A stretch of 64,000 nt of DNA from Thermoflexus hugenholtzii JAD2 (GTDB lineage Bacteria > Chloroflexota > Anaerolineae > Thermoflexales > Thermoflexaceae), in assembly GCF_900187885.1 (NCBI RefSeq), contig NZ_FYEK01000075.1:62001-126000 (forward strand), read 5' to 3'. This document shows positions 9,555 to 55,804 of the stretch, one piece after another. The notes under the pieces were generated by a model that had not been told where the DNA came from, ran no database searches, and worked only from the letters and a program-made list of their open reading frames with translations. Positions within the stretch are counted from its first letter, which is position 1, and each line of letters starts with the position of its first letter. Position numbers and translations under genes: made by a program.

Positions 9555-10466
9555 ATGAGAGATCCCGGAGGACATCGAGAGAGAAACGCGCTGCAAGCGG
9601 TGCGACGAGCCCTCCGGGCCTCCTCCCCGGAGGCGGCCCTCTGGTGGACGGCGCAGGCCTACCGGGCCGCCCCCACCCACCCGGCCGTCCGGGCCTTGGT
9701 GCGGCGGATCCGGCGTCGATATCCGAACGCGCGGGGACATCGGCCCATCCACTGGTTCCGCATCGCACTGGCTGGCTATGCCCTTCTGACTCTCAGCGCC
9801 CTGATCGTGATCCTCTACGGTCTGCGGCTGCGCAACCCGCTGGAGCCTCCGGCAACTGTGGATCCCTCCGTGGCGATCGCGGTATCAGAGGAAACCGGGA
9901 TGTCAGAGACGCGCTGGGGAGAAGAACCCGCCCCAGAAATTGCGACGCCGTCCCCTGCCCTCGCAAGTCCGACGCCGACCGCCACCCTTGTTCCCCCAAC
10001 GCCAACCGCGCACGCTTCGCCCGCGGCCTCGCCGACGCGGCGGCCGGTGCCCACCGCAACGCCCCGGCCGCGCCCGACGGCCTCTCCCACCCTCATGCCC
10101 GGTCCACCCTTCCCCGGGCGCTGGATCCTGGTGGATCTCAGCGATCAGGAGCTCATCGCCTACGAAGGGGAGACGCCGATCCTGCGGACGAAGGTCTCCA
10201 CCGGGCGGGCCCGCACGCCCACGGTGGTAGGGGTCTTCCGCATCTATCTCAAGCTGCAGTCGCGGACGATGCGGGGCCCGGACTACCACCTGCCGAACGT
10301 TCCCTACGTGATGTATTTCTACAAAGGCTATGCTCTGCACGGCACCTATTGGCACAACAACTTCGGCCGGCCGATGAGCCACGGCTGCGTCAATCTGCCC
10401 ACGCCGATCGCGGCGCAGCTGTATCAGTGGGCGGACATCGGGACGCCGGTGGTGGTGCAGCCGTGA
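9555..10466 (+). CDS. L,D-transpeptidase (YkuD domain), membrane-anchored
   Basis: 303 residues. A cytoplasmic basic N-terminus (1-68), one TM segment (69-90), a Pro/Thr linker (about 115-175) and a YkuD domain from about 180. The catalytic motif is present: His262 in 'LHGTYWHNN' and S275-H-G-C278-V-N-L. These enzymes form 3-3 cross-links in peptidoglycan or attach proteins to it, outside the membrane. The last 77 bp overlap the convergent SARP gene. Family assignment is firm; the physiological partner is unknown. Confidence 0.9.
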   Translation: MRDPGGHRERNALQAVRRALRASSPEAALWWTAQAYRAAPTHPAVRALVRRIRRRYPNARGHRPIHWFRIALAGYALLTLSALIVILYGLRLRNPLEPPATVDPSVAIAVSEETGMSETRWGEEPAPEIATPSPALASPTPTATLVPPTPTAHASPAASPTRRPVPTATPRPRPTASPTLMPGPPFPGRWILVDLSDQELIAYEGETPILRTKVSTGRARTPTVVGVFRIYLKLQSRTMRGPDYHLPNVPYVMYFYKGYALHGTYWHNNFGRPMSHGCVNLPTPIAAQLYQWADIGTPVVVQP

Positions 10467-12447
10467 GGGCTTCGGAGCGGGGAGCCATCCAGGCAGGTGG
10501 TTCCAGGAACGGCGTCTCCTCCCAGAAGACGCGCCACGCCTCCCATCCCATCCGCATCAGGAGGCGCTCCGCCTCCGAACGGGCCACAGGGGTCCATCGC
10601 CGGCGGAGGGCCATGGCCAGCAGCCGGAGGTCATCCCGACCCCAGCGTCGCGATCCCTGTAGGGCGCGCCGCCCCCAGCGGCGGGCCTCCGCGACATCGC
10701 CCCGGGCGCGCGCCGCCAGGGCGAGGACCAGAGCCGCCCGCGGGCCCTCGAAGCCGTCGCCGGCGATGGGCCAAAGGGTCTTCAGCCGATCGATCCAGCG
10801 CGCGCAAGCCGTTGGATCCCCGGTCCGCAGATAGATCCGGGCCGCCCCCGCGGCCATCCAGAGGGCGGCATCGAGATCCCGCTCCGCTTCCGCCCTCCGA
10901 TAAAGGGCCTCGATCTCCTCCTCCCAGGCCGGGGAAGGCCCCTCCGCCCACCCGCGGAACAGCGTCCAGTTCCCACGGATCCGAACGCCGAGGAGGCCGC
11001 AGCGCTCATCCTCTTCGAGGAGCGCCCACGCCGTCTCCAGAGACCGGAGGGCCCCCGGGTAGTCCCCCAGATGGCGTAGCGCCACCGCCAGGCCGTTCAG
11101 CGTGGCGGCCCGATGGACGGCCGGGGCGTCCTCGGGCAGCTGCGCAAGGGCGGTCTGGAGATGCCCGCGGGCAGCCGGGAACCAGCCCCGGCGCAGCGCC
11201 GTCAGCCCCCGCAGCCGTCGCAACAGGGCGCGGTGAAGGGGATCCAGGGGAAGAGCGACCTCCGCGGCGGCGAGGAGCCGTTCGGCGGCGGCCGGGCGCC
11301 CCCGCTGGAGCTCCAGATAGCTCAGGCAGGCGACGGCCTCCGCCCGACGCGTTGGATCCCCCATGCGGCGGGCGAGGCGGAGCATCGCCCGCAGGTTGGC
11401 CGCTTGGCGGGCCCGATCCCCCTCGAAATCCGCAACGGCATCCACGGCGCACCGCGCCCGCCAGGCCCACTCCACCGGCGTGTGTGGAGTCAACAACGCC
11501 AGGGCCGCCACCGCCCAGGGGGCCGCCTCCCGGTAAGCGCCGCGGGCCAGGGCCTCCTCCGCCGTTTGCACCAGGCCCTCCAGGAGGGCCTGACGGAGAG
11601 GCTCCACGGGGAAGGCAGGCGCCTCCCAGGCGAGCGTTTCCAAGGCTTGTAGCAAGCGACCCAGCGGGGCCGGCGGACGGATCCGCCATGGAGGCGCGAA
11701 CGCGACGTCCAGATCCATGGGGACCCCTTGGGATCGGCAGGCCCATTGATACCGTTGCCCGATGCGGCGCGCCGCTTCAAGGTCCCCGCGCGCCTCCGCC
11801 TGGCGGATCAGGAAGCGGACGACCTCCGCGCGGGTGGGCTCCTCCCGGAACAGGCGCTCCGCCCAGCGTTCCGCCTCCGGCAGGTCGCCCATCTTCTCTG
11901 CCAGGCGCCACAGGCGGGCGAGGGCTTCCAGGAATTGCTCGCGCAGCGCCTGTCGCCAGCCGACCACCCACGGGGCTTCCCAGTCCGGGAGCAGGTCTCC
12001 GGTGTAGAGGGCGACGGCGGCCTCCAGGGCCGCCCGGGCCTGCAACGGAGGAGCCCCTCGCGCCCGCTGTAGGAGCCCCGCGAAGGCGTGGACGTCCGTC
12101 CACCACGGCGTCGAAGGGGCGAAGGCGATGCGGGCCCGGTCGACCCGCAGGGGGAACCGGAGCCCGCGGAACAGGCGGCGAAGGCGATAGAGGGCCGCGC
12201 GCAGGGCGCCCTGAGCCTGCTCCGGCGCGAGATCCGGCCACAACGTCTCCGCCAGGGCGGACCGGGAGAACGCGCGGAAGGGGTGGAGGGCCAGGAACGC
12301 GAGGAGCGCCCCCGTGCGGGGCTGCCGGGCCAGCTCCGGAAGCGGGCGGCCCCGGCCCTCCACCTCCAGGCCCCCGAACAGACAAAGACGCAGGGCCGGG
12401 CGGGCGAAGACCGGCCCGCCGGCCTCATCGAAAGCGGAAGGGATCAT
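10390..12447 (-). CDS. SARP-type transcriptional regulator (winged helix + BTAD + TPR-like repeats)
   Basis: A 685-residue protein. Residues ~15-105 form an OmpR/SARP winged helix ('LRLCLFGGLEVEGRG', 'RSALAETLWPDLAPEQAQGA'). A bacterial transcriptional activation domain follows ('ALYTGDLLPDWEAPWV'), then a long helical TPR-like C-terminal half. It lacks an NB-ARC ATPase, so it is a mid-sized SARP. The start at 12447 has a strong ribosome site; in-frame ATGs further upstream are disfavoured. It is divergent from a LuxR-type gene, and heptameric direct repeats lie between them. SARPs usually activate accessory or secretory gene sets; the target here is unknown. Confidence 0.85.
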   Translation of the reverse strand: MIPSAFDEAGGPVFARPALRLCLFGGLEVEGRGRPLPELARQPRTGALLAFLALHPFRAFSRSALAETLWPDLAPEQAQGALRAALYRLRRLFRGLRFPLRVDRARIAFAPSTPWWTDVHAFAGLLQRARGAPPLQARAALEAAVALYTGDLLPDWEAPWVVGWRQALREQFLEALARLWRLAEKMGDLPEAERWAERLFREEPTRAEVVRFLIRQAEARGDLEAARRIGQRYQWACRSQGVPMDLDVAFAPPWRIRPPAPLGRLLQALETLAWEAPAFPVEPLRQALLEGLVQTAEEALARGAYREAAPWAVAALALLTPHTPVEWAWRARCAVDAVADFEGDRARQAANLRAMLRLARRMGDPTRRAEAVACLSYLELQRGRPAAAERLLAAAEVALPLDPLHRALLRRLRGLTALRRGWFPAARGHLQTALAQLPEDAPAVHRAATLNGLAVALRHLGDYPGALRSLETAWALLEEDERCGLLGVRIRGNWTLFRGWAEGPSPAWEEEIEALYRRAEAERDLDAALWMAAGAARIYLRTGDPTACARWIDRLKTLWPIAGDGFEGPRAALVLALAARARGDVAEARRWGRRALQGSRRWGRDDLRLLAMALRRRWTPVARSEAERLLMRMGWEAWRVFWEETPFLEPPAWMAPRSEALTAAPPPASRCPPTDTAAPRSAWAD

Positions 12448-12527
12448 CTCCCACCTCCCCTCCCCCTGGGTCCACGCCATTCTCCAAAACTTCACGGAGA
12501 ATTCTAACACACCGGGGCCGGGTTTTG

Positions 12528-12545
12528 TCACGATCTTATCACGAT
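12528..12545 (+). promoter_or_regulatory. heptamer direct repeats, possible SARP operator
   Basis: TCACGAT-CTTA-TCACGAT: two identical heptamers with a 4-bp spacer, an 11-bp period. This is the geometry on which SARP proteins bind. The pair sits in the 158-bp region between the divergent SARP and LuxR-type genes. A second direct repeat, CACGGAGAAT, flanks it (12493-12502 and 12549-12558). Binding is inferred. Confidence 0.45.
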
Positions 12546-12631
12546 CGGCACGGAGAATCGGAAGAGAGACCCCCCACCACAAGGCGGCTCACGGGGTATT
12601 TCATATGGGAAGCAACAACGAGGAGGATCAG

Positions 12632-13392
12632 GTGGTCGTCGGGATCGCGGAGCCCTGCCCCCTGCGTCGGGAAGCCCTCCGGAGGGCGCTGCGGGCGTTG
12701 GGATGCCCGGACCTTCGGGAGTTGCCGCTTCCGCTGGCCGGCCCGGGATGGCGCGAGGGGGAAGAGGACCTCGAGGTGGTGCTCCTGGCCTTCCGGGTGC
12801 CGGCCGGCAACGGGCTGGGCCTCTACGCCGCCCTCCGACGCGCCCACCGGCCCGTGCGGGGCGTGGTCCTGGTGGAGGATCCGGGTCCGCCCCACTGGGG
12901 GCTGGCTGGGCGGCTGGGCCTTGCGGTGCTGGCCTATTCCGAGGCCGCCGGGGAAGTCCTTCGCCGGGCGGTGCGGGGGCAGTGGGCGATGTCCCCGGCG
13001 GCCCGGAGCGCCGGGGCGGCGTGGTGGGCGGGATGGGGTGCCCGCTGGGAGGGGTTGAGCCGGATGCAGCGGGCCATCGCCTGGGGATCGCCCGCGGCTG
13101 GAGCGACCCGGAGATCGCCCAGGCCCTCTCGATCCGCCGGAGCGCGCTGCGCACCCACCTCCGACGCCTGTTCGCCCGCCTGGGACTCCCCGGCCGACAG
13201 GCCCTGCGGGCGTGGCTGCGAGCCGGGGGGCTGGAGGACCCGGCGGTGGCAGCCGGGCTTCGGGGGGAAGCGCCCTGGCCGCCCGTGGCAGGGGATCCCG
13301 ATGGCCGTGCGATGTCCCCCCTTTTGGAGGACACCGCCCGAATTTGTCCTCCTTTTTGGAGGACCACGGCTTCCGCTGGCTGGATAGGATGA
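12632..13392 (+). CDS. LuxR-type response-regulator-like protein, frame broken once as given
   Basis: The N-terminal part reads like a degenerate receiver domain ('VVVGIAEPCPLRREALRRAL'). The C-terminus is a clear LuxR helix-turn-helix ('SDPEIAQALSIRRSALRTHL', then 'RRLFARLGL'). The two lie in different frames. Adding one G to the G4 run at 13083-13086 joins them as '..MQRAIAWGIARGWSDPEI..' and gives about 253 residues. So this is a one-base loss or a sequence error rather than an old pseudogene. The GTG at 12632 follows GAGGAGG at good spacing; an ATG at 12605 is the alternative. It is divergent from the SARP gene. Confidence 0.6.
13314..13364 (+). other. two near-identical hairpins at the 3' end of the LuxR-type gene
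   Basis: GTCCTCC-TTTTT-GGAGGAC (13346-13364) is a perfect 7-bp stem. A sister copy with one mismatch, GTCCCCC(C)-TTTT-GGAGGAC, lies at 13314-13332. Both are inside the last codons of the repaired gene. Without a following T run they are poor intrinsic terminators; a small repeat is the other reading. Confidence 0.4.
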
Positions 13393-15491: not shown

Positions 15492-16268
15492 ATGCGCGAG
15501 CCATATATTATCGCCTTGATGGTTATAATTCTCGTGCTGACAGTCGCTCCACCGGAGACTGTGGGGTCAATCTCATTAGAACAAAATGTTGATCAAATCG
15601 ATAAAGCGCTAATGAATTTGACCCCTTATGTCCGCTTTGCTGATGACGGGATCGCAGTCTTTGATATGAACTCTGCTAAACAAGCTGGTTTCTCGGAATC
15701 CGTCATCCTTTTAGCAGAGGAGATGGTAGCCTTCCACAATGAGTTAGTCAAGGTAGCATCCCTTGAAAAAGTGACAGATGTACGAATGATACCAGTAGCT
15801 CTCGATCGGTATCCAAGGTTGCGAGAATTGTTTGAGCGGGCTTCTCGTGAAGCCTATTTCCGCCAGGAGTCTAATAATGGCGCCGTCCCCCTCGGACTTC
15901 ACGCTTGTGGGACTTACAGCAATCCTGTGCCCAACTACACACCGCCTCGATCCACATTCGGTCCGTATGCTGATCCAGCAGGGACCCTGATTAGTTGGGG
16001 GTTTCATCACACGGCGTGGTATGCCTGTGGGCAGTTACCCCCATACGACTGTCCCAACGACTTTACCAGGGACAGGGGATATTACGGGCCATATGGCTAT
16101 TGTTGGTCACCCTGTTTCCGCGATCAAGGACGTACCACGAGTGGAAGCTCATATTTTACCATCCAATATGGAGAACCTAATCCTGAGGTTTACAAGAGCT
16201 CATGGCCTTCGTGGTGGCCATATTGGTATTGGGACACATATGTTTTCTGGTGGCACTTGACATATTAG
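15492..16268 (+). CDS. secreted Tyr/Trp/Cys-rich protein of unknown function
   Basis: 258 residues with a strong ribosome site (AAAGGAGGTGC) and a signal peptide ('YIIALMVIILVLTVAPPETVGS'). Residues 30-130 look helical. The last 120 residues are rich in Tyr, Trp, Pro and Gly with five cysteines ('GLHACGTYSNPVPNYTPP', 'YGYCWSPCF'), ending in an aromatic tail ('SSWPSWWPYWYWDTYVFWWH'). GC content is visibly far lower than the surroundings, which points to recent transfer. It starts 36 bp after the IS1182-like element. I do not recognise the family; an extracellular toxin-like or surface protein is a guess. Confidence 0.7.
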   Translation: MREPYIIALMVIILVLTVAPPETVGSISLEQNVDQIDKALMNLTPYVRFADDGIAVFDMNSAKQAGFSESVILLAEEMVAFHNELVKVASLEKVTDVRMIPVALDRYPRLRELFERASREAYFRQESNNGAVPLGLHACGTYSNPVPNYTPPRSTFGPYADPAGTLISWGFHHTAWYACGQLPPYDCPNDFTRDRGYYGPYGYCWSPCFRDQGRTTSGSSYFTIQYGEPNPEVYKSSWPSWWPYWYWDTYVFWWHLTY

Positions 16269-16336: not shown

Positions 16337-16358
16337 ATCTCTACGGAGGTTGAGAAAA

Positions 16359-16610
16359 ATGAATAGAACATCGATTAAAGTTTTCTTACACATCGTAGCT
16401 GTTTATCTCCTGATAGGCTTTGCTTACGCAGTTTATGTTCAGATCAAAGCGGACCCGAATGACCCACCACCTATGCCAGTATGGGCTCCAGGACTTTCAG
16501 TAGGTGAGCGATTAGGAGCTTTCTTACTTGGTTTCGTCCTCCCAGGGCTTTTTTGGCCATTCTTCCTTCCTCCTACCCTGTGGTGGTGTTTATTCAAGAA
16601 TGCCTGTTGA
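16359..16610 (+). CDS. small two-TM membrane protein
   Basis: 83 residues from the ATG at 16359 (ACGGAGG 8 bp upstream). Two hydrophobic stretches ('VFLHIVAVYLLIGFAYAVYV' and 'LGAFLLGFVLPGLFWPFFLP') are separated by a Pro-rich loop. Low GC like the secreted protein just upstream, so the two probably arrived together; a partner or immunity role is possible. No family recognised. Confidence 0.55.
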   Translation: MNRTSIKVFLHIVAVYLLIGFAYAVYVQIKADPNDPPPMPVWAPGLSVGERLGAFLLGFVLPGLFWPFFLPPTLWWCLFKNAC

Positions 16611-18041: not shown

Positions 18042-18314
18042 TCTGCGTGTGGAAATCATCGATGGCTCCTCTTAAGCGCGACATGGATGGATAACTCCGG
18101 AAGCCATCCGATTTCAGGATGGTATTGGGTCCCATCTATGTGCAATCCAAGTGACTTTTGTGTGGCTTATCGAAGCGATCAGGATTTCTATCTGTGGGGA
18201 ACAACTATTTATGGGGATTTTTATAGTCGAACATATTTTGGGATGGGATGTTTTCCTAATGTGGGTCCGGCACGTGGTCTCCGTGTTTATCCCTAACAGA
18301 CCGAGGAGGTGGAT

Positions 18315-19040
18315 ATGCACAAGGGACGATGGCTTCTTTTGGTGGGGATCGGGTTGTTGCTGAGCGTAGGGCGCGGGGCGGCTCCCTCCAATCCATCGGC
18401 TCCCATCCGGCTCACAGCCGCCCTGGCAAAGATCACCATCCCCATGGCCTCCCCGCTTCTATGGGCTCCGATCCCCTCGGATCGAAAAGGGGACTCTACC
18501 CCTATCGTCTGGGTGAACGGCCAGCCGATTCCTTACGAGGCCTGGGCGTTCGCCGTCGAGCCAATGCACGCGGCAGGGGTTCCCAATCCCGCAGGCGAGG
18601 CCCTCGCCCTGCTGATCCAGAACACGCTCATACAGCAGGAAGCCCAACGGCAGGGAATGCGCGCTCGTCCAGAGGAGGTGGAAGCCGCTCTCGCCCATAT
18701 GTTTGCAGCCGCGGAGCAGAGTCCAGAGGCGAAGGCGCTGCTCCAAACCCTGGCCCAGCGGCAGGGACTCCGACCGAAGGATCCCGCGTTTCGGGCGATG
18801 ATGGCGCAGGCGCTGGAACGAAGCCTGCCGGTGGCGAAACTCAACGAGGTGCTCCTTCGAGAGAGCGGCGGCGACCCCTGCGCGGCGCATCGACGGCGGG
18901 TTGCCCTGTTGAAGGAGCTCTGGAGCCGGGCGGAGATCCGGCTGGCCCCCCAAGGGGAGGCGCTGGGCCTGCAGGTGCCCCCACCGGAGGAGCTGCCGGA
19001 GGTTCGCAATCCGCCGCCGGGCTGCGAGGCCTCCCGGTGA
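18315..19040 (+). CDS. secreted SurA-N-like protein without PPIase domain
   Basis: 241 residues with ribosome site GAGGAGG, a signal peptide ('WLLLVGIGLLLSVGRGA') and a SurA/PrsA N-terminal-type domain: 'VWVNGQPIPYEAWAFAVE', then 'ALLIQNTLIQQEAQRQGMRA'. The parvulin PPIase domain normally found downstream is absent; the C-terminus is short with a Cys near the end. Its stop overlaps a GTG (GTGA, 19037-19040) that opens the Cys-rich precursor. This implies translational coupling and a dedicated chaperone or secretion role for that precursor. The fold is reasonably sure, the role is inferred. Confidence 0.7.
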   Translation: MHKGRWLLLVGIGLLLSVGRGAAPSNPSAPIRLTAALAKITIPMASPLLWAPIPSDRKGDSTPIVWVNGQPIPYEAWAFAVEPMHAAGVPNPAGEALALLIQNTLIQQEAQRQGMRARPEEVEAALAHMFAAAEQSPEAKALLQTLAQRQGLRPKDPAFRAMMAQALERSLPVAKLNEVLLRESGGDPCAAHRRRVALLKELWSRAEIRLAPQGEALGLQVPPPEELPEVRNPPPGCEASR

Positions 19041-19681
19041 GGCGGAAGCCCCCCTCCGCCGAGATGACCTTTCCCGCGCCGAGTCAGCACTCGGGTCCAT
19101 GCCCTGCAGCGCTTCCAGAACCACCCGGATCTTCAAGCCCTGGGGCTGGCCGTGCCACAAGAGGATGGAGAGTTCCCGATCGTCGTCGCCCACGAACTGG
19201 CCGATGGCAACACCTTGCTGGCGGCAGGCTGGGTTCAGAAACCGAACGAAGTGGTGGTGACGTATGCCTTCGCCAGGGGAAGGCACTGCGCATTCAGAGC
19301 GAAGTGCTGCAGATCGTTGCGGATTCGGATCGGGCCCGGCTGGCGGGGCGGAGCGTGAACGGGCGGGTCACCGCGGGGACCCAGGCGGGGGCAGGAGCCG
19401 GCGTCCAGCCGATGAGCCACTGCGCCGGATGCATCAACTGCTGGACCGGACCGTGGGAGACCGATTGCCAATCTTGCGCCTCATGGAACTACACCTGCCT
19501 GTGGAATTGCTGTGGTTGGCCATGTGGCACAAGCTGCGCAATGTGCGTGATTCGACGAGATCCTTTAGCCTGTGCGATCTGCGTTGCATGCATTGTCGTC
19601 CATTGCCCGCTGTGCGCTTCCGGGTGCTGCCTTCAGTGGGTTCATGACTGCTGCGCATGTGGTCCTTGTCCTGGACCATAA
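19037..19681 (+). CDS. Cys-rich peptide precursor A (22 Cys in last 88 residues), frame broken as given
   Basis: The C-terminal 88 codons (from 19415) are open and extraordinary: 22 cysteines in CxxC-like spacing among Trp, Gly and hydrophobic residues, e.g. 'SHCAGCINCWTGPW' and 'NCCGWPCGTSCAMC'. The upstream part lies in other frames ('ALQRFQNHPDLQALGLAVPQ', 'FPIVVAHELADGNTLLAAGW', then 'ALRIQSEVLQIVADSDRARL'). Adding one base to each of three runs (C6 at 19049, G3 at 19093, G4 at 19276) gives one ORF of about 215 codons from the GTG overlapping the previous stop. It resembles a leader plus Cys-rich core, as in bacteriocin precursors. No export signal is seen. Function inferred. Confidence 0.55.
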   Translation: MRRKPPSAEMTFPAPSQHSGPCPAALPEPPGSSSPGAGRATRGWRVPDRRRPRTGRWQHLAGGRLGSETERSGGDVCLRQGKALRIQSEVLQIVADSDRARLAGRSVNGRVTAGTQAGAGAGVQPMSHCAGCINCWTGPWETDCQSCASWNYTCLWNCCGWPCGTSCAMCVIRRDPLACAICVACIVVHCPLCASGCCLQWVHDCCACGPCPGP

Positions 19682-19700: not shown

Positions 19701-20066
19701 ATGTCCTTTCGCCTGACGGCTCGAAGTCCAGGATGGCGCATGGCTCTGTTGCTTGGGATCTGGGGGAGCGCGCTGGCCTATGCCTTCCTCGGCCCAACAG
19801 GAGATAAAGTGCTGGAAAGCGCAGCAATCGTAGCGCTGGCTGCCCATACGCTGGCGTGGGACGCTCCGGGACGTCGGGTCCGACTCCCGTTGGCTCTGCA
19901 CCTCGGGATCCCTCTGGGGCTCCTCATCTTGGCGGGAGCGCGGGCTCCCAACTGGATCGCTCTGCCCCCCTGGCTGCAGATGGTGGATGGCTTCTGGGTG
20001 GTTGCAGCCCTTGCGACCTACGGGGTCAGCCTTCTGGCGCGCGTTCGCCTCAGGCCCCTGAAGTGA
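19701..20066 (+). CDS. four-TM membrane protein A, partner of precursor A
   Basis: 121 residues, start at 19701 with GGAGG 5 bp upstream, only 19 bp after the Cys-rich precursor. Four hydrophobic segments: 'WRMALLLGIWGSALAYAFL', 'LESAAIVALAAHTLAW', 'ALHLGIPLGLLILAGA' and 'FWVVAALATYGVSLLARV', with a basic C-terminus. Small multi-TM proteins directly after a peptide precursor are typical immunity or transport helpers. The second precursor in this operon is followed by a protein of the same layout. No family recognised. Confidence 0.65.
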   Translation: MSFRLTARSPGWRMALLLGIWGSALAYAFLGPTGDKVLESAAIVALAAHTLAWDAPGRRVRLPLALHLGIPLGLLILAGARAPNWIALPPWLQMVDGFWVVAALATYGVSLLARVRLRPLK

Positions 20067-20158
20067 TCGACCAAAAGCTGTGTGTGGACACATAGCTCCG
20101 TGAGATCTGGCCACGCATCGGCTGTCCGGCCGGCGCCTCCAGAGCTGAGGGGGAGCGG

Positions 20159-20962
20159 GTGTGGGTCTTCACGGATCTCTCGATGCGGGCGCGTCTCGTG
20201 CAGGTCCTGGGCCCGGTGCGGGCCCTGCGGGTGGCCCAGGCGGTGGCCCGGATGGGAGGCCCCGTGCTCGGGGTGGATTGGGGAAGGCGAGATTTCCTCC
20301 GCCGGGCTGGAGGAGCCCTGCTCGGCCTTCTGGCGCTACGAAACCTAAGGGCTCCGCTTCGCTCTGGGACAGCTAGGCCCCCCATCCCTTCCCAATCCCG
20401 GCCGCCCTCCCGCCGACGGGTGCCACGGGGGGAACCGATCGATGAAGCGCTCTTCCGCCGGGCCCAGGCCCAATTCCGCCCGGAGCGCTGGAACGCCGAA
20501 CCCGACTGGAACGAAGTGTGGCTGTATACTTCCGAGCAGGGTTCTGCTCTGGTCACACCACTATCGACATCCGGCCTATCGCATCGCTTCCTGACCGCCC
20601 CAGTCCGCGGGGAGGAGATCCTAGCCCTGTATGTGGCAGAGATCGAATGGCGAGGGGGATCTACAACCAGCGCTCGGATGCGGCTGTATGACCTACGAGC
20701 GAAAGTGTTATTGGACGCTGAACTTGAGAATGGCCGGGCGCGCCGCCAAGCACCGGTTCAGTCCTCCAAGGCACCGGGTCATGCCAAGGACGTGGCACGC
20801 TCAAAGCAGGATGTCTGCTGCAACTGGCTGGCACTGAATTTCTGCATTGATGCGGCCACAATTGAGTGCGTGGGTTGTTGTTTCACAAACCCCGCGCTAT
20901 TTGCTGCCTGGTTAGCCGCCGGAACCGCAGCCTGCTTTGCTGCCAACTGCTGGTTCTGTTAA
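20159..20962 (+). CDS. Tat-exported Cys-rich peptide precursor B
   Basis: 267 residues from GTG 20159 (GAGGGGGAGC upstream). A twin-arginine motif RRDFLRR (43-49) is followed by 'AGGALLGLLALRNL', a classical Tat signal with a 42-residue n-region; later starts at 20183 or 20249 would shorten it. A beta-rich middle ('EEILALYVAEIEWRGG', 'ARMRLYDLRAKVLLDAELEN') leads to a 50-residue tail with nine cysteines among hydrophobic residues ('CCNWLALNFCIDAATIEC' ... 'CFAANCWFC'). Tat signal, long propeptide and Cys-rich hydrophobic core is the architecture of halocin-C8-type bacteriocin precursors. Homology is not claimed; the layout is what is seen. Confidence 0.7.
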   Translation: MWVFTDLSMRARLVQVLGPVRALRVAQAVARMGGPVLGVDWGRRDFLRRAGGALLGLLALRNLRAPLRSGTARPPIPSQSRPPSRRRVPRGEPIDEALFRRAQAQFRPERWNAEPDWNEVWLYTSEQGSALVTPLSTSGLSHRFLTAPVRGEEILALYVAEIEWRGGSTTSARMRLYDLRAKVLLDAELENGRARRQAPVQSSKAPGHAKDVARSKQDVCCNWLALNFCIDAATIECVGCCFTNPALFAAWLAAGTAACFAANCWFC

Positions 20963-20980: not shown

Positions 20981-21319
20981 ATGGACCAGGCCTCGATTCC
21001 CCTTCCCTTGCGGTGGAGTCTTCTCTTGCTGAGCCTCACTCTGGGCGGGATGCTCCTTATGAACGGACTGGCCCTCGGCATCCCGTGGCTTCCTGTGTTC
21101 AGTCTGGCAACCTTCCTGCTGGCGGCGGTTTTCCTTCGATATGGCAATACGCGGATCAGCACCGGCGTGGGGCTGGCCCTGCTGCTGGCCGGATACATCG
21201 GGATGCTAATCGGCGGGCTGCTCCGACAGTTCCAGACGCCGCTGGAAACCGTGGCCATCTTGAGTGTGGGAGTGATGGTCCTGGGCCTGTGGGCGGACTG
21301 CCGCAAGCGATCCCCATGA
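20981..21319 (+). CDS. four-TM membrane protein B, partner of precursor B
   Basis: 112 residues, ATG 20981 after GAGAGGAGG, 18 bp after precursor B. Four TM segments: 'WSLLLLSLTLGGMLLMNGLA', 'FSLATFLLAAVFLRYG', 'GVGLALLLAGYIGMLIGGLL' and 'VAILSVGVMVLGLWADC'. Size and topology mirror the membrane protein after precursor A, though the sequences are not obviously alike. An immunity or export role is inferred from position. Confidence 0.65.
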   Translation: MDQASIPLPLRWSLLLLSLTLGGMLLMNGLALGIPWLPVFSLATFLLAAVFLRYGNTRISTGVGLALLLAGYIGMLIGGLLRQFQTPLETVAILSVGVMVLGLWADCRKRSP

Positions 21320-52439: not shown

Positions 52440-52520
52440 CAGCGGCCGGCGGAAGTTTGAGCCCCCGGCTGGGATGATGTTAGACTGAGGCGACGGATCT
52501 CAGCTCGACGGACGCAAGAG

Positions 52521-53510
52521 ATGGCGCGTCGCGCCACCGCCCTGGCCCACCCGAACATCGCCTTCGTGAAATACTGGGGGAATCGGGATGAGCGCCTCCG
52601 ACTCCCGGCCAATCCCTCGTTTTCTATGAACCTGGGAGGGTTGCGCACGATCACCACGGTGACGTTCCAGGAAGCGGAAGGGCCGGATCTCCTGTTCGTG
52701 AACGGCGTGCCGGTGGAGGGGCCGGCTCGGGAACGGGTCTCGGCGTTCCTGGATCACGTGCGAAGGATGGCCGGGTTCCGGGGCCGCGCCGTGGTGGAGT
52801 CCATCACGGACATCCCGCCCGGCGTGGGGCTGGCCTCCTCGGCGGCGGCCTTCGCCGCCCTGGCCGCTGCGGCGTCCGCCGCCCTGGATCTGCGGCTCTC
52901 CGAGCGGGACCTGTCCACCCTCGCCCGCTTGGGCTCCGGTTCGGCGTGCCGTTCGGTGCCCCCAGGATTCGTGGAGTGGGTGGCCGGCGAGCGCCATGAG
53001 GATTCCTATGCTTATAGCGTGGCCCCACCGGAGCACTGGGACCTGTGGGACGTGATCGCTGTGGTCAGCGAGCAGCACAAGGCGGTGGGGTCCAGCGAGG
53101 GGCACCGCCGGGCGGCCACCAGCCCCCTTCATGGACCGCGGGTGGCGACCGCGCCGGAGCGGGTGTCCCGCTGTCGGGAAGCCGTGCTGCGGCGGGACTT
53201 CGAGGCCCTGGCGGAGATCGTCGAGACCGATGCCATCTGGATGCACGCGGTGATGATGACCTCCCGACCGCCCCTGTTCTACTGGGAACCCGCCACCCTC
53301 ATCGTGCTGCAGGCAGCCCGTCGCTGGCGGGAGGAGGGGCTGCCGGTGGCCTTCACCCTGGACGCCGGACCGAACGTCCATCTGCTCTGCCCCGCGGAGG
53401 CCGTGGAGGAGGTGGCCCGGCGGGCCCAGGGGGTGCCCGGGGTGCTTCGGGTGCTGCGCAGCGGCCCCGGCGGCGGGGCCCGCATCCTGCCGCCCGAGGG
53501 AGGCCCATGA
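52521..53510 (+). CDS. mvaD: diphosphomevalonate decarboxylase (mevalonate pathway)
   Basis: 329 residues. The opening 'AHPNIAFVKYWGNRDERLRL' is diagnostic of mevalonate decarboxylases; 'PPGVGLASSAAAFAALA' is the GHMP ATP-binding loop; 'GSGSACRSVPPGFVEW' and 'FTLDAGPNVHLL' complete the active site. It makes isopentenyl diphosphate or, in relatives, isopentenyl phosphate. Most bacteria use the MEP route, so its presence fits Chloroflexota, where a mevalonate route is known. No other pathway gene is in the window. Confidence 0.93.
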   Translation: MARRATALAHPNIAFVKYWGNRDERLRLPANPSFSMNLGGLRTITTVTFQEAEGPDLLFVNGVPVEGPARERVSAFLDHVRRMAGFRGRAVVESITDIPPGVGLASSAAAFAALAAAASAALDLRLSERDLSTLARLGSGSACRSVPPGFVEWVAGERHEDSYAYSVAPPEHWDLWDVIAVVSEQHKAVGSSEGHRRAATSPLHGPRVATAPERVSRCREAVLRRDFEALAEIVETDAIWMHAVMMTSRPPLFYWEPATLIVLQAARRWREEGLPVAFTLDAGPNVHLLCPAEAVEEVARRAQGVPGVLRVLRSGPGGGARILPPEGGP

Positions 53511-53522
53511 AAGGAGGTCCCT

Positions 53523-54092
53523 ATGGATGTTCGCGTGGAGCGGCGCCTGTTCACGGTGGAGGAGTATCACCGGATGGCGGAGGCGGGGATCCTCTCCGAG
53601 GACGACCGGGTGGAACTCATCGAGGGGGAGATCGTCGAGATGAGCCCCATCGGAAGCCGGCACGCGGGGTGCGTCAACCGGATCAGCCACTGGTTCTCCC
53701 AACGAGTGGGTAGGCGCGCCATCGTCAGCGTTCAGAACCCCATCCGTTTGGGGCGGCGTTCGGAGCCGCAGCCGGACGTGGCGTTGTTGCGGCCGCGGGA
53801 GGATTTCTACGCTTCGGAGCATCCAGGAGCGGAGGATGTGTTGCTGATCGTGGAGGTGGCGGAGCATTCGGCCGGGTATGATCGGGGGGTGAAGGTGCCG
53901 CTGTATGCGCGGTATGGGGTGGTCGAGGTGTGGGTGGTGGATCTTTTGCGAGGCGTGGTGGAGGTGTATCGGGGACCGGAGGGAGAGGGGTATCGGGAGG
54001 TGCGGGTGGTGGGGCGGGGGGAGGCCATCGCCCCGCTCCAGCTGCCGGATCTCCACGTCCCCGTGGACCAGATCCTCGGCGAGACCTCCTGA
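53523..54092 (+). CDS. Uma2-family PD-(D/E)XK endonuclease-like protein
   Basis: 189 residues of the Uma2 (DUF820) type: 'MAEAGILSEDDRVELIEGEI', 'SPIGSRHAGCVNRI', 'GRRSEPQPDVALLRPREDFY' (catalytic-like D), 'LIVEVAEHSAGYDRGVKVPL', 'YARYGVVEVWVVDL'. Family members are widespread in Chloroflexota and Cyanobacteria in many copies; cellular role unknown. The 3' half is biased toward G in the third position relative to its neighbours. 12 bp after mvaD, AAAGGAGG upstream. Confidence 0.9.
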   Translation: MDVRVERRLFTVEEYHRMAEAGILSEDDRVELIEGEIVEMSPIGSRHAGCVNRISHWFSQRVGRRAIVSVQNPIRLGRRSEPQPDVALLRPREDFYASEHPGAEDVLLIVEVAEHSAGYDRGVKVPLYARYGVVEVWVVDLLRGVVEVYRGPEGEGYREVRVVGRGEAIAPLQLPDLHVPVDQILGETS

Positions 54093-54134
54093 GGGAAGGT
54101 CGTATCCGTCGGGGAACCTCGATTGGGGGGAGCG

Positions 54135-55222
54135 ATGACCGAGCCGGTGATCACGATGCCGTGGGGTGTCTTGGGGTTCTTGCTGGCGCTGGGCCCGCTG
54201 ATCTTCGTCCACGAGCTGGGGCATCTCCTGACGGCGAAGCTGGCCGGGGTGGCGGTGGAGGAGTTCGGGTTCGGCTTCCCACCCCGGCTGCTGATCCTGG
54301 GCCGGTGGCGGGAGACCTGCTCACCCTCAACGCGATCCCCTTCGGCGGCTTCGTGCGGCTGCGGGGCGAGGAGGATCCGGGGATCCCGGAGGGCTTCGCC
54401 GCCCGGCCGTGGGCCTGGCGCTTGCTGATCCTCGCCGCCGGGCCCCTGATGAACATGGCCCTGGCCTGGGGGGTGCTCATCCTGATCTTCCTGCTCGGCG
54501 TGCCCTCCTCCCAGGTCCGGGTGGAGGGCGTGGCCGCTGGTTCCCCGGCCGCCCAGGCCGGGCTCCAGGCCGGGGATGTCATCCTGGCGCTGGATGGCGT
54601 GCCGGTGGAGCGCACCGAGGATGTGCGCCGGCTGGCGCAGGAGCGAAAGGGGCGCACCGTGATCCTGCGGATCCAGCGGGCGCAGGGCGTGCAGGAAGTA
54701 TCCGTATACGTGCGGCCGGATCCGCCGCCGGGCCAGGGAGCGATGGGGGTGATCATCGCCTCGGTCCCGGATTACAGCCGGATGCAGCGGTTCGGGCTCG
54801 GGGAGGCGATGGCCCGCGGGACGGTGATGTTCGGGGCGTTGACGGCGCAGCTGTTCAGCCTGCCGGCCCGCATCCTCCTGGGCCTGGTCCCGGCCCAGGT
54901 CCTCCAGCCCGCCGGCCCTGTCCGCATCGGGGCGGAGGCGGGGGAGGCGCTGCGGACCAGCGTGGAGGTGGGCTCCGCCTATGTGTTCCTCACCTTCATC
55001 GCCCTGATCAGCTTGGCCATCGCTTTCACCAACCTCTTGCCCATCCCGGCCCTGGATGGCGGGCGGATCCTGTTCGTGCTCATCGAGGCCGTTCGAGGGC
55101 GGCGTCTGGATCCGCGCCGGGAGCAGGTGGTGCACCTTATCGGCTTCGCCTTCCTGCTGGCGCTGCTGATCTTCCTCTCCATCCGGGAGATCGGAGAGCT
55201 CTCGCGGGGGGCCGGCCCGTAA
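54135..55222 (+). CDS. rseP: RseP-type site-2 protease with PDZ domain, frame broken once as given
   Basis: The first 60 codons (from ATG 54135) carry the zinc motif HELGH (26-30) in '[18 protein letters not shown]' and '[18 protein letters not shown]'. The rest, in another frame, continues '[19 protein letters not shown]', TM segments, a PDZ domain ('[20 protein letters not shown]') and the second zinc motif '[11 protein letters not shown]'. One extra G in the run at 54310-54312 joins both exactly ('[17 protein letters not shown]') and gives a normal 362-residue RseP. The gene is usually important, so a sequence error is likely. It cleaves anti-sigma factors or signal-peptide remnants within the membrane. 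Confidence 0.85.
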
Positions 55223-55345
55223 AGGAAGGGCGCCGCGCCGCTGCTCCCTTCTCCCGGAGGGAACCCTCATTCCTCGGGCGGCGGTGAAGCCCGCCGCACG
55301 GGCGCGCGTCGATGCTCCGGATGACCCTGCTTCAGGAGGAGCCCG

Positions 55346-55804
55346 GTGGATCGGCCGGTGGTGGCCACGACGTTCTACGTGCGGTATGCGGAGACCGATC
55401 AGATGGGCCTGGTGCATCACAGCGCTTATCTGATCTGGTTCGAGGAGGGAAGAAGCCAGTATATGCGGGCCTGCGGGGCGGACTACGCGGAGATCGAGCG
55501 CAGCGGGGCGTTGTTCGCGGTGGCCGAGGCCCACGCCCGTTACGAAGCCCCGGCCCGCTACGGGGATCGGGTCACCGTCCGGACATGGGTGGAGGAGATC
55601 CGCAGCCGCTCGATCACCTTCGGCTACGCGGTCTACAACGCCGACACCGGCCAGCGCCTGGCCACCGGCTGGACGAAACATCTGTGCCTGGATCGATCCG
55701 GCCGGGTGATGACGATCCCGGAGATCTGGCGAGCCGTCCTAACGCGCGGTCCGCAAGCAGGCTCCTTCGGGGACCAGAGCGTGCGGGTGGAGCGGACTGG
55801 GTGA
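55346..55804 (+). CDS. acyl-CoA thioesterase (YbgC/4HBT hotdog family)
   Basis: 152 residues, GTG start after CAGGAGGAGC. The hotdog-fold opening 'YVRYAETDQMGLVHHSAYLI' with the catalytic Asp, then 'WFEEGRSQYMRACG', 'YEAPARYGDRVTVRTWVEEI' and 'SRSITFGYAVYN'. It hydrolyses short- to medium-chain acyl-CoA or 4-hydroxybenzoyl-CoA-like substrates in the cytoplasm; the specific substrate is unknown. Confidence 0.9.
   Translation: MDRPVVATTFYVRYAETDQMGLVHHSAYLIWFEEGRSQYMRACGADYAEIERSGALFAVAEAHARYEAPARYGDRVTVRTWVEEIRSRSITFGYAVYNADTGQRLATGWTKHLCLDRSGRVMTIPEIWRAVLTRGPQAGSFGDQSVRVERTG

Follow-up and report, generated by a model that had tools for sequence, protein, structure and literature searches.

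Among described systems, halocin C8 resembles in layout the intact relatives of the gene analysed here. The halocin C8 precursor is a Tat substrate that matures outside the cell, with a C-terminal peptide of 76 aa (PMC11509114). The model of its domain, TIGR04449 (halocin_C8_dom, NCBIfam; cut-off 24 bits), detected the positive control, Haloferax volcanii; none of the nine Thermoflexus genomes passed the cut-off, that of Thermoflexus hugenholtzii JAD2 included, and there was no match in 350 genomes of the phylum. A distant relative of the proteins described below, L103, matched TIGR04449 very weakly (E = 0.71), and is the only one to exceed the cut-off of the Tat model TIGR01409.

We analysed a stretch of 64,000 nucleotides, hereafter called the window, from the genome of the hot-spring bacterium T. 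hugenholtzii JAD2. It contains an open frame with a Cys-rich C-terminus—hereafter called gene A—directly behind a SurA-like gene. Through comparison with relatives, we propose, with a probability of roughly 70%, that gene A is a decayed, 5′-truncated pseudogene, the intact relatives of which look like genes for exported Cys-rich precursors. In the best reading, the decay is recent, and the island of the T. hugenholtzii genome that holds this copy is variable. The features of the locus are listed in the table.

Table. Features of the gene A locus, in window coordinates.
Feature	Position	Strand	Basis
3′ fragment of a secreted-protein gene	18098..18296	+	Ends in ..FGMGCFPNVGPARGLRVYP and the stop; usual partner upstream of the SurA-like gene; read by eye
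SurA_N-like gene, 243 aa, complete	18309..19040	+	PF13624 (SurA_N_3); GAGGAG before the start
GTG, originally proposed as coupled start	19037..19039	+	Unsupported: no ribosome-binding site
Leader domain of gene A	19086..19271	+	Frame of 19038; matched by the G003 protein in tblastn and in a frame-aware alignment; weaker homology from ~19047, TGA at 19065
Break (reading frame changes)	19272..19285	+	Comparison with the G003 protein
End of leader and Cys-rich tail	19286..19681	+	Frame of 19037; tail 19415-19678, stop 19679-19681; 58-60% identity to the G003 protein
Membrane protein, small and hydrophobic (121 aa); candidate cognate immunity protein of A	19701..20066	+	AGGAGG before the ATG
Gene B (Cys-rich relative, other type)	20159..20962	+	Carries the GRRDFLRR segment and, of the shared module, the second half
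Small membrane protein, four predicted helices, candidate immunity protein	20981..21319	+	Hydropathy; position after gene B

The tail is the most conspicuous part of gene A. As the original prediction had counted, 22 of its 88 codons encode Cys, twice the number in the runner-up 88-codon stretch among all open frames of the window (11 Cys). The prediction also placed three homopolymer runs correctly (C6 at 19049-19054, G3 at 19093-19095 and G4 at 19276-19279), but the one-base additions that it made there are not needed for an open frame of about 215 codons: the frame of 19037 runs through 215 codons to its first stop with no repair at all. Moreover, when every ordered triple of the 13 runs of at least three identical bases within 19037-19300 was tried, 286 of 286 gave a stop-free path. 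Since all of these triples and the unrepaired frame are open alike, arrival at the coupled start was guaranteed and is uninformative. The argument that three repairs leading there reveal a real gene is thus empty. The GTG does overlap the stop of the SurA-like gene (TGA, 19038-19040). However, it lacks the ribosome-binding site present at 18309, 19701, 20159 and 20981, the only close relative of the SurA-like gene in the genus is followed by no Cys-rich gene, and the N-terminus of the relative of gene A is quite different, being made up of a module and an RRDFLRR segment.

That relative is a near-complete, single-frame protein of the genome G003, a sister Thermoflexus (L014:6227-7528, on the same contig as L082; Thermoflexus sp. 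SKYG36); it comes from a metagenome assembly, and its own module lacks the CxxC start. In tblastn, the G003 protein matches two stretches of the window: 19047-19271, read in the frame of 19038, and 19286-19678, read in that of 19037. A frame-aware alignment places one frame change, at ~19271, and holds the leader frame upstream of it through a Pro-rich linker to ~19047, across the in-frame TGA at 19065; a weaker frame-change penalty adds a single further switch, which is doubtful and lies in low-complexity sequence. Consequently, of the three predicted frame changes, the one near the G4 run is supported (19271-19286), and those at the C6 and G3 runs are not, since the alignment keeps the leader frame there. 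Two distant proteins found in the phylum-wide search also match in the leader frame: L108 from position 19191 on, and L109 from 19086 on, which lies upstream of the G3 run. L109 matches the tail too; these matches are weak (E ~0.01 each). At the break, the G003 sequence has about five codons more than the window, so that a small deletion is no less likely an explanation than a miscounted base.

The front of the precursor is missing. In the G003 protein, the order is the module, a GRRDFLRR segment and then the leader. The segment, recognized by eye in the G003 protein and in gene B, is absent from gene A; neither it nor the module occurs upstream of gene A, and gene B (from 20147) is the one place in the window where the module is present, in part. 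In addition, the leader frame contains no ATG, GTG or TTG from the stop at 19065 to 19130. The prediction of a real gene holds for the origin of gene A, and so does that of a conserved upstream part in another frame, given the G003 homology to the tail and, in another frame, to the leader; the copy itself is broken. What the window preserves is thus the fossil of a genuine Cys-rich gene that has lost both its frame and its front. It shares with the genes that we define as A-type the leader homology, the conserved Cys pattern and a cognate membrane gene downstream, and differs from a complete single-frame precursor with an N-terminal export part by its frame break and missing N-terminus. A-type tails are rare, occurring in 5 of the 396 genomes of the class sample.

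From the end of the leader through the tail (19286..19681), 77 of 129 codons encode the same residue as in the G003 protein, with a dN/dS of 0.13 that is only indicative, as dS is saturated; the dN/dS of the leader is 0.41. The tail thus looks constrained, which suggests that the decay is recent; alternatively, the tail may still be in use. Its open frame and retained cysteines are the counterpoint to decay.

Could the gene be intact in the cell, with one or more base-count errors in the draft sequence? The break adjoins the G4 run, the tail is free of decay, and the genome is a draft of 3.22 Mb in 78 scaffolds (N50 139,933; PMC8129789). Nevertheless, we regard this explanation, which underlay the proposed repairs, as unlikely. 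Of the three errors proposed, a single one has homology behind it, the shortening by about five codons at the break argues against a base-count error, and the leader and tail, even if joined, would have neither start, module nor export segment. The genome G004, a single contig, provides a measure of the error rate: it is ~96% identical to the window in DNA over 22.3-64 kb, with synteny stopping at ~21.6 kb, and the 39.3 kb that align contain 84 gaps, mostly clustered outside genes. Frame-changing differences are rare in coding DNA, with few isolated single-base differences inside genes, and at this rate three errors within 230 bases are very unlikely, although the sequence is compatible with a single error. 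One single-base difference clearly splits a gene, at 54317, within a repeat-rich gene (52500-55681) that is intact in G004 (1256 aa). Furthermore, other A-type copies in the genus are broken or partial as well: L089 in T. sinensis (contig coverage 34.8), L015 and L018 in the genome G002, and the second copy in G003. Because of these copies, a transposase remnant nearby (17.4-18.1 kb) and the end of synteny at the island, decay suits the setting better.

Two further explanations take the sequence as given and let it be translated. From GTG 19037, which is open through the tail and overlaps the SurA-like stop, a 215-codon protein with a new N-terminus and the Cys tail could be made by coupling to the SurA-like gene. 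This is improbable, more so than a sequencing error: besides the missing ribosome-binding site and export segment, the first 80 codons of this frame have no counterpart in the G003 protein, which aligns to that stretch in another frame, and the arrangement of a SurA-like gene with a Cys tail is seen nowhere else. A programmed ribosomal frameshift joining leader and tail is the least probable of all, and was set aside. The AGGGGAAGG stretch at the break resembles, by eye, a ribosome-binding site; however, the G003 homologue needs no frameshift, no classical slippery heptamer was seen by eye, and the leader frame would still lack a start. Gene A as a decayed and truncated copy, most likely dead, remains our preferred reading.

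The SurA-like gene upstream is a separate and complete neighbour of gene A. Its protein matches PF13624 (E = 2.5e-7, 31.1 bits, cut-off 27.2), and a search of the genome-contig collection gave no match. Its relative in G002 (36% identity) ends at about the same place. The fragment at 18098..18296 resembles L017:1734-2276, which lies directly 5′ of the SurA-like gene in G002; in both genomes, the gene is thus preceded by a secreted-protein gene or fragment ending, by eye, in RVYP. The surroundings hold several other genes of note. A BTAD/SARP-type regulator (10390-12582) flanks the island, and a similar gene (L017:3-1487) flanks the SurA-like locus of G002. LuxR-like HTH genes or fragments, recognized by eye, lie upstream of module or cargo genes at window 12703-13392, L014:5923-6489, L015:5062-5403 and L089:5838-6155; the two that were scanned have no Pfam match. 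At 15492-16268, a secreted protein with an aromatic-rich C-terminus, whose ending resembles that of L033:7-492, is followed by a small membrane protein (16350-16610), and the two are possibly another effector/immunity pair.

Downstream of gene A, the small hydrophobic membrane protein has its homologue (E ~6e-6) in the protein encoded just behind the G003 relative. The module match in the gene B region spans 20147-20467, and a relative in G004 is 63% identical. Small membrane protein genes follow A- and B-type genes, and are mostly absent behind genes with the same module and other cargo. In G039, two precursor/membrane pairs lie behind an ABC transporter. The simplest reading of precursor plus membrane gene would be an effector/immunity pair. 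Among the neighbouring ORFs that were scanned against Pfam, a part of the total, no RiPP-type maturation enzyme stands beside a precursor; the matches were a regulator, a transposase, a protein kinase, a PEP-utilising enzyme and the ABC transporter of G039. Separately, a contig stretch of 4.8 kb (L016/L035) is 99.7% identical between G039 and G146, two bins from different families, which reflects either mis-binning or recent transfer.

How might an intact precursor work? Its thioredoxin-like (DCC1-like) module comes first, then the twin-arginine segment and the leader, and the Cys-rich peptide forms the C-terminus; the gene for a small membrane protein follows. Tat-dependent export would carry the protein out of the cell. 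The Cys-rich part would then be released and, once its disulfides are formed, act against competitors, and the membrane protein would shield the producer. In the genome of T. hugenholtzii JAD2, the peptide is probably not made in working form, because the leader and tail lie directly behind an unrelated SurA-like gene, with neither an export segment nor a usable start.

Of greater interest is the wider family. Its module begins with a CxxC near the N-terminus and is predicted to adopt a thioredoxin-like fold (pLDDT 78), with best PDB matches that are mostly thioredoxins (E ~4e-3); an AlphaFold prediction of the G003 protein from four sequences was unusable (pLDDT 36). Together with the twin-arginine segment, the module is fused to many C-terminal cargoes in Thermoflexus and other Chloroflexota (L083, L084, L085, L094, L099, L102-L109 and window 20159-20962), including Cys-rich tails, a 230-residue domain, a metalloprotease-like domain and a DPBB-like domain. 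One such protein (L084:3070-4332) carries an extreme Cys/Gly tail (GCGCSCNCCCGCGLCCGCGC...). Some Thermoflexus genomes contain at least ten module copies, and the module occurs in 11 of 400 genomes of the phylum and in a Bacillota MAG; most of the relatives that protein searches turned up are from Thermoflexus MAGs. The full length of the module protein is covered by no family of Pfam or NCBIfam, and the tail, leader and partner proteins match no family in Pfam, NCBIfam or PHROGs. Sequence searches of the PDB and of the plasmid collection gave no match either. The literature search yielded no paper on a module/Cys-rich precursor family, and the word bacteriocin is absent from the Thermoflexus genome paper (PMC8129789); the wider family of similar proteins appears to be undescribed.

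We put forward a tentative generalization, less probable than the decay of gene A itself: Chloroflexota may encode undescribed polymorphic exported precursors, in which a thioredoxin-like module and a twin-arginine segment carry interchangeable cargoes, many of them Cys-rich with cognate membrane immunity, and Thermoflexus may copy and re-fuse the module, leaving behind decayed copies such as gene A. If true, the combination of a conserved redox-like module, swappable Cys-rich peptides and a candidate immunity gene would supply heat-stable antimicrobial peptides rich in disulfides, and cargo swapping could be tested in a genus whose type strain is in culture.

Among known systems, the intact relatives resemble halocin C8 in combining a putative twin-arginine segment, a leader and a Cys-rich tail. 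In contrast to halocin C8, they carry a thioredoxin-like module before the putative export segment, and the candidate immunity function is a separate membrane protein rather than a part of the precursor. The SurA N-terminal domain proteins (PF13624) are represented by the neighbouring gene, which passes the cut-off, and not by any part of gene A. With the DCC1-like thiol-disulfide oxidoreductases (PF04134), the module shares the N-terminal CxxC and the predicted thioredoxin-like fold, and PF04134 is its recurring weak Pfam match; however, the matches stay below the cut-off (best 18.7 bits against 27.8), and the module, absent from gene A, is fused to an export segment and a variable cargo.
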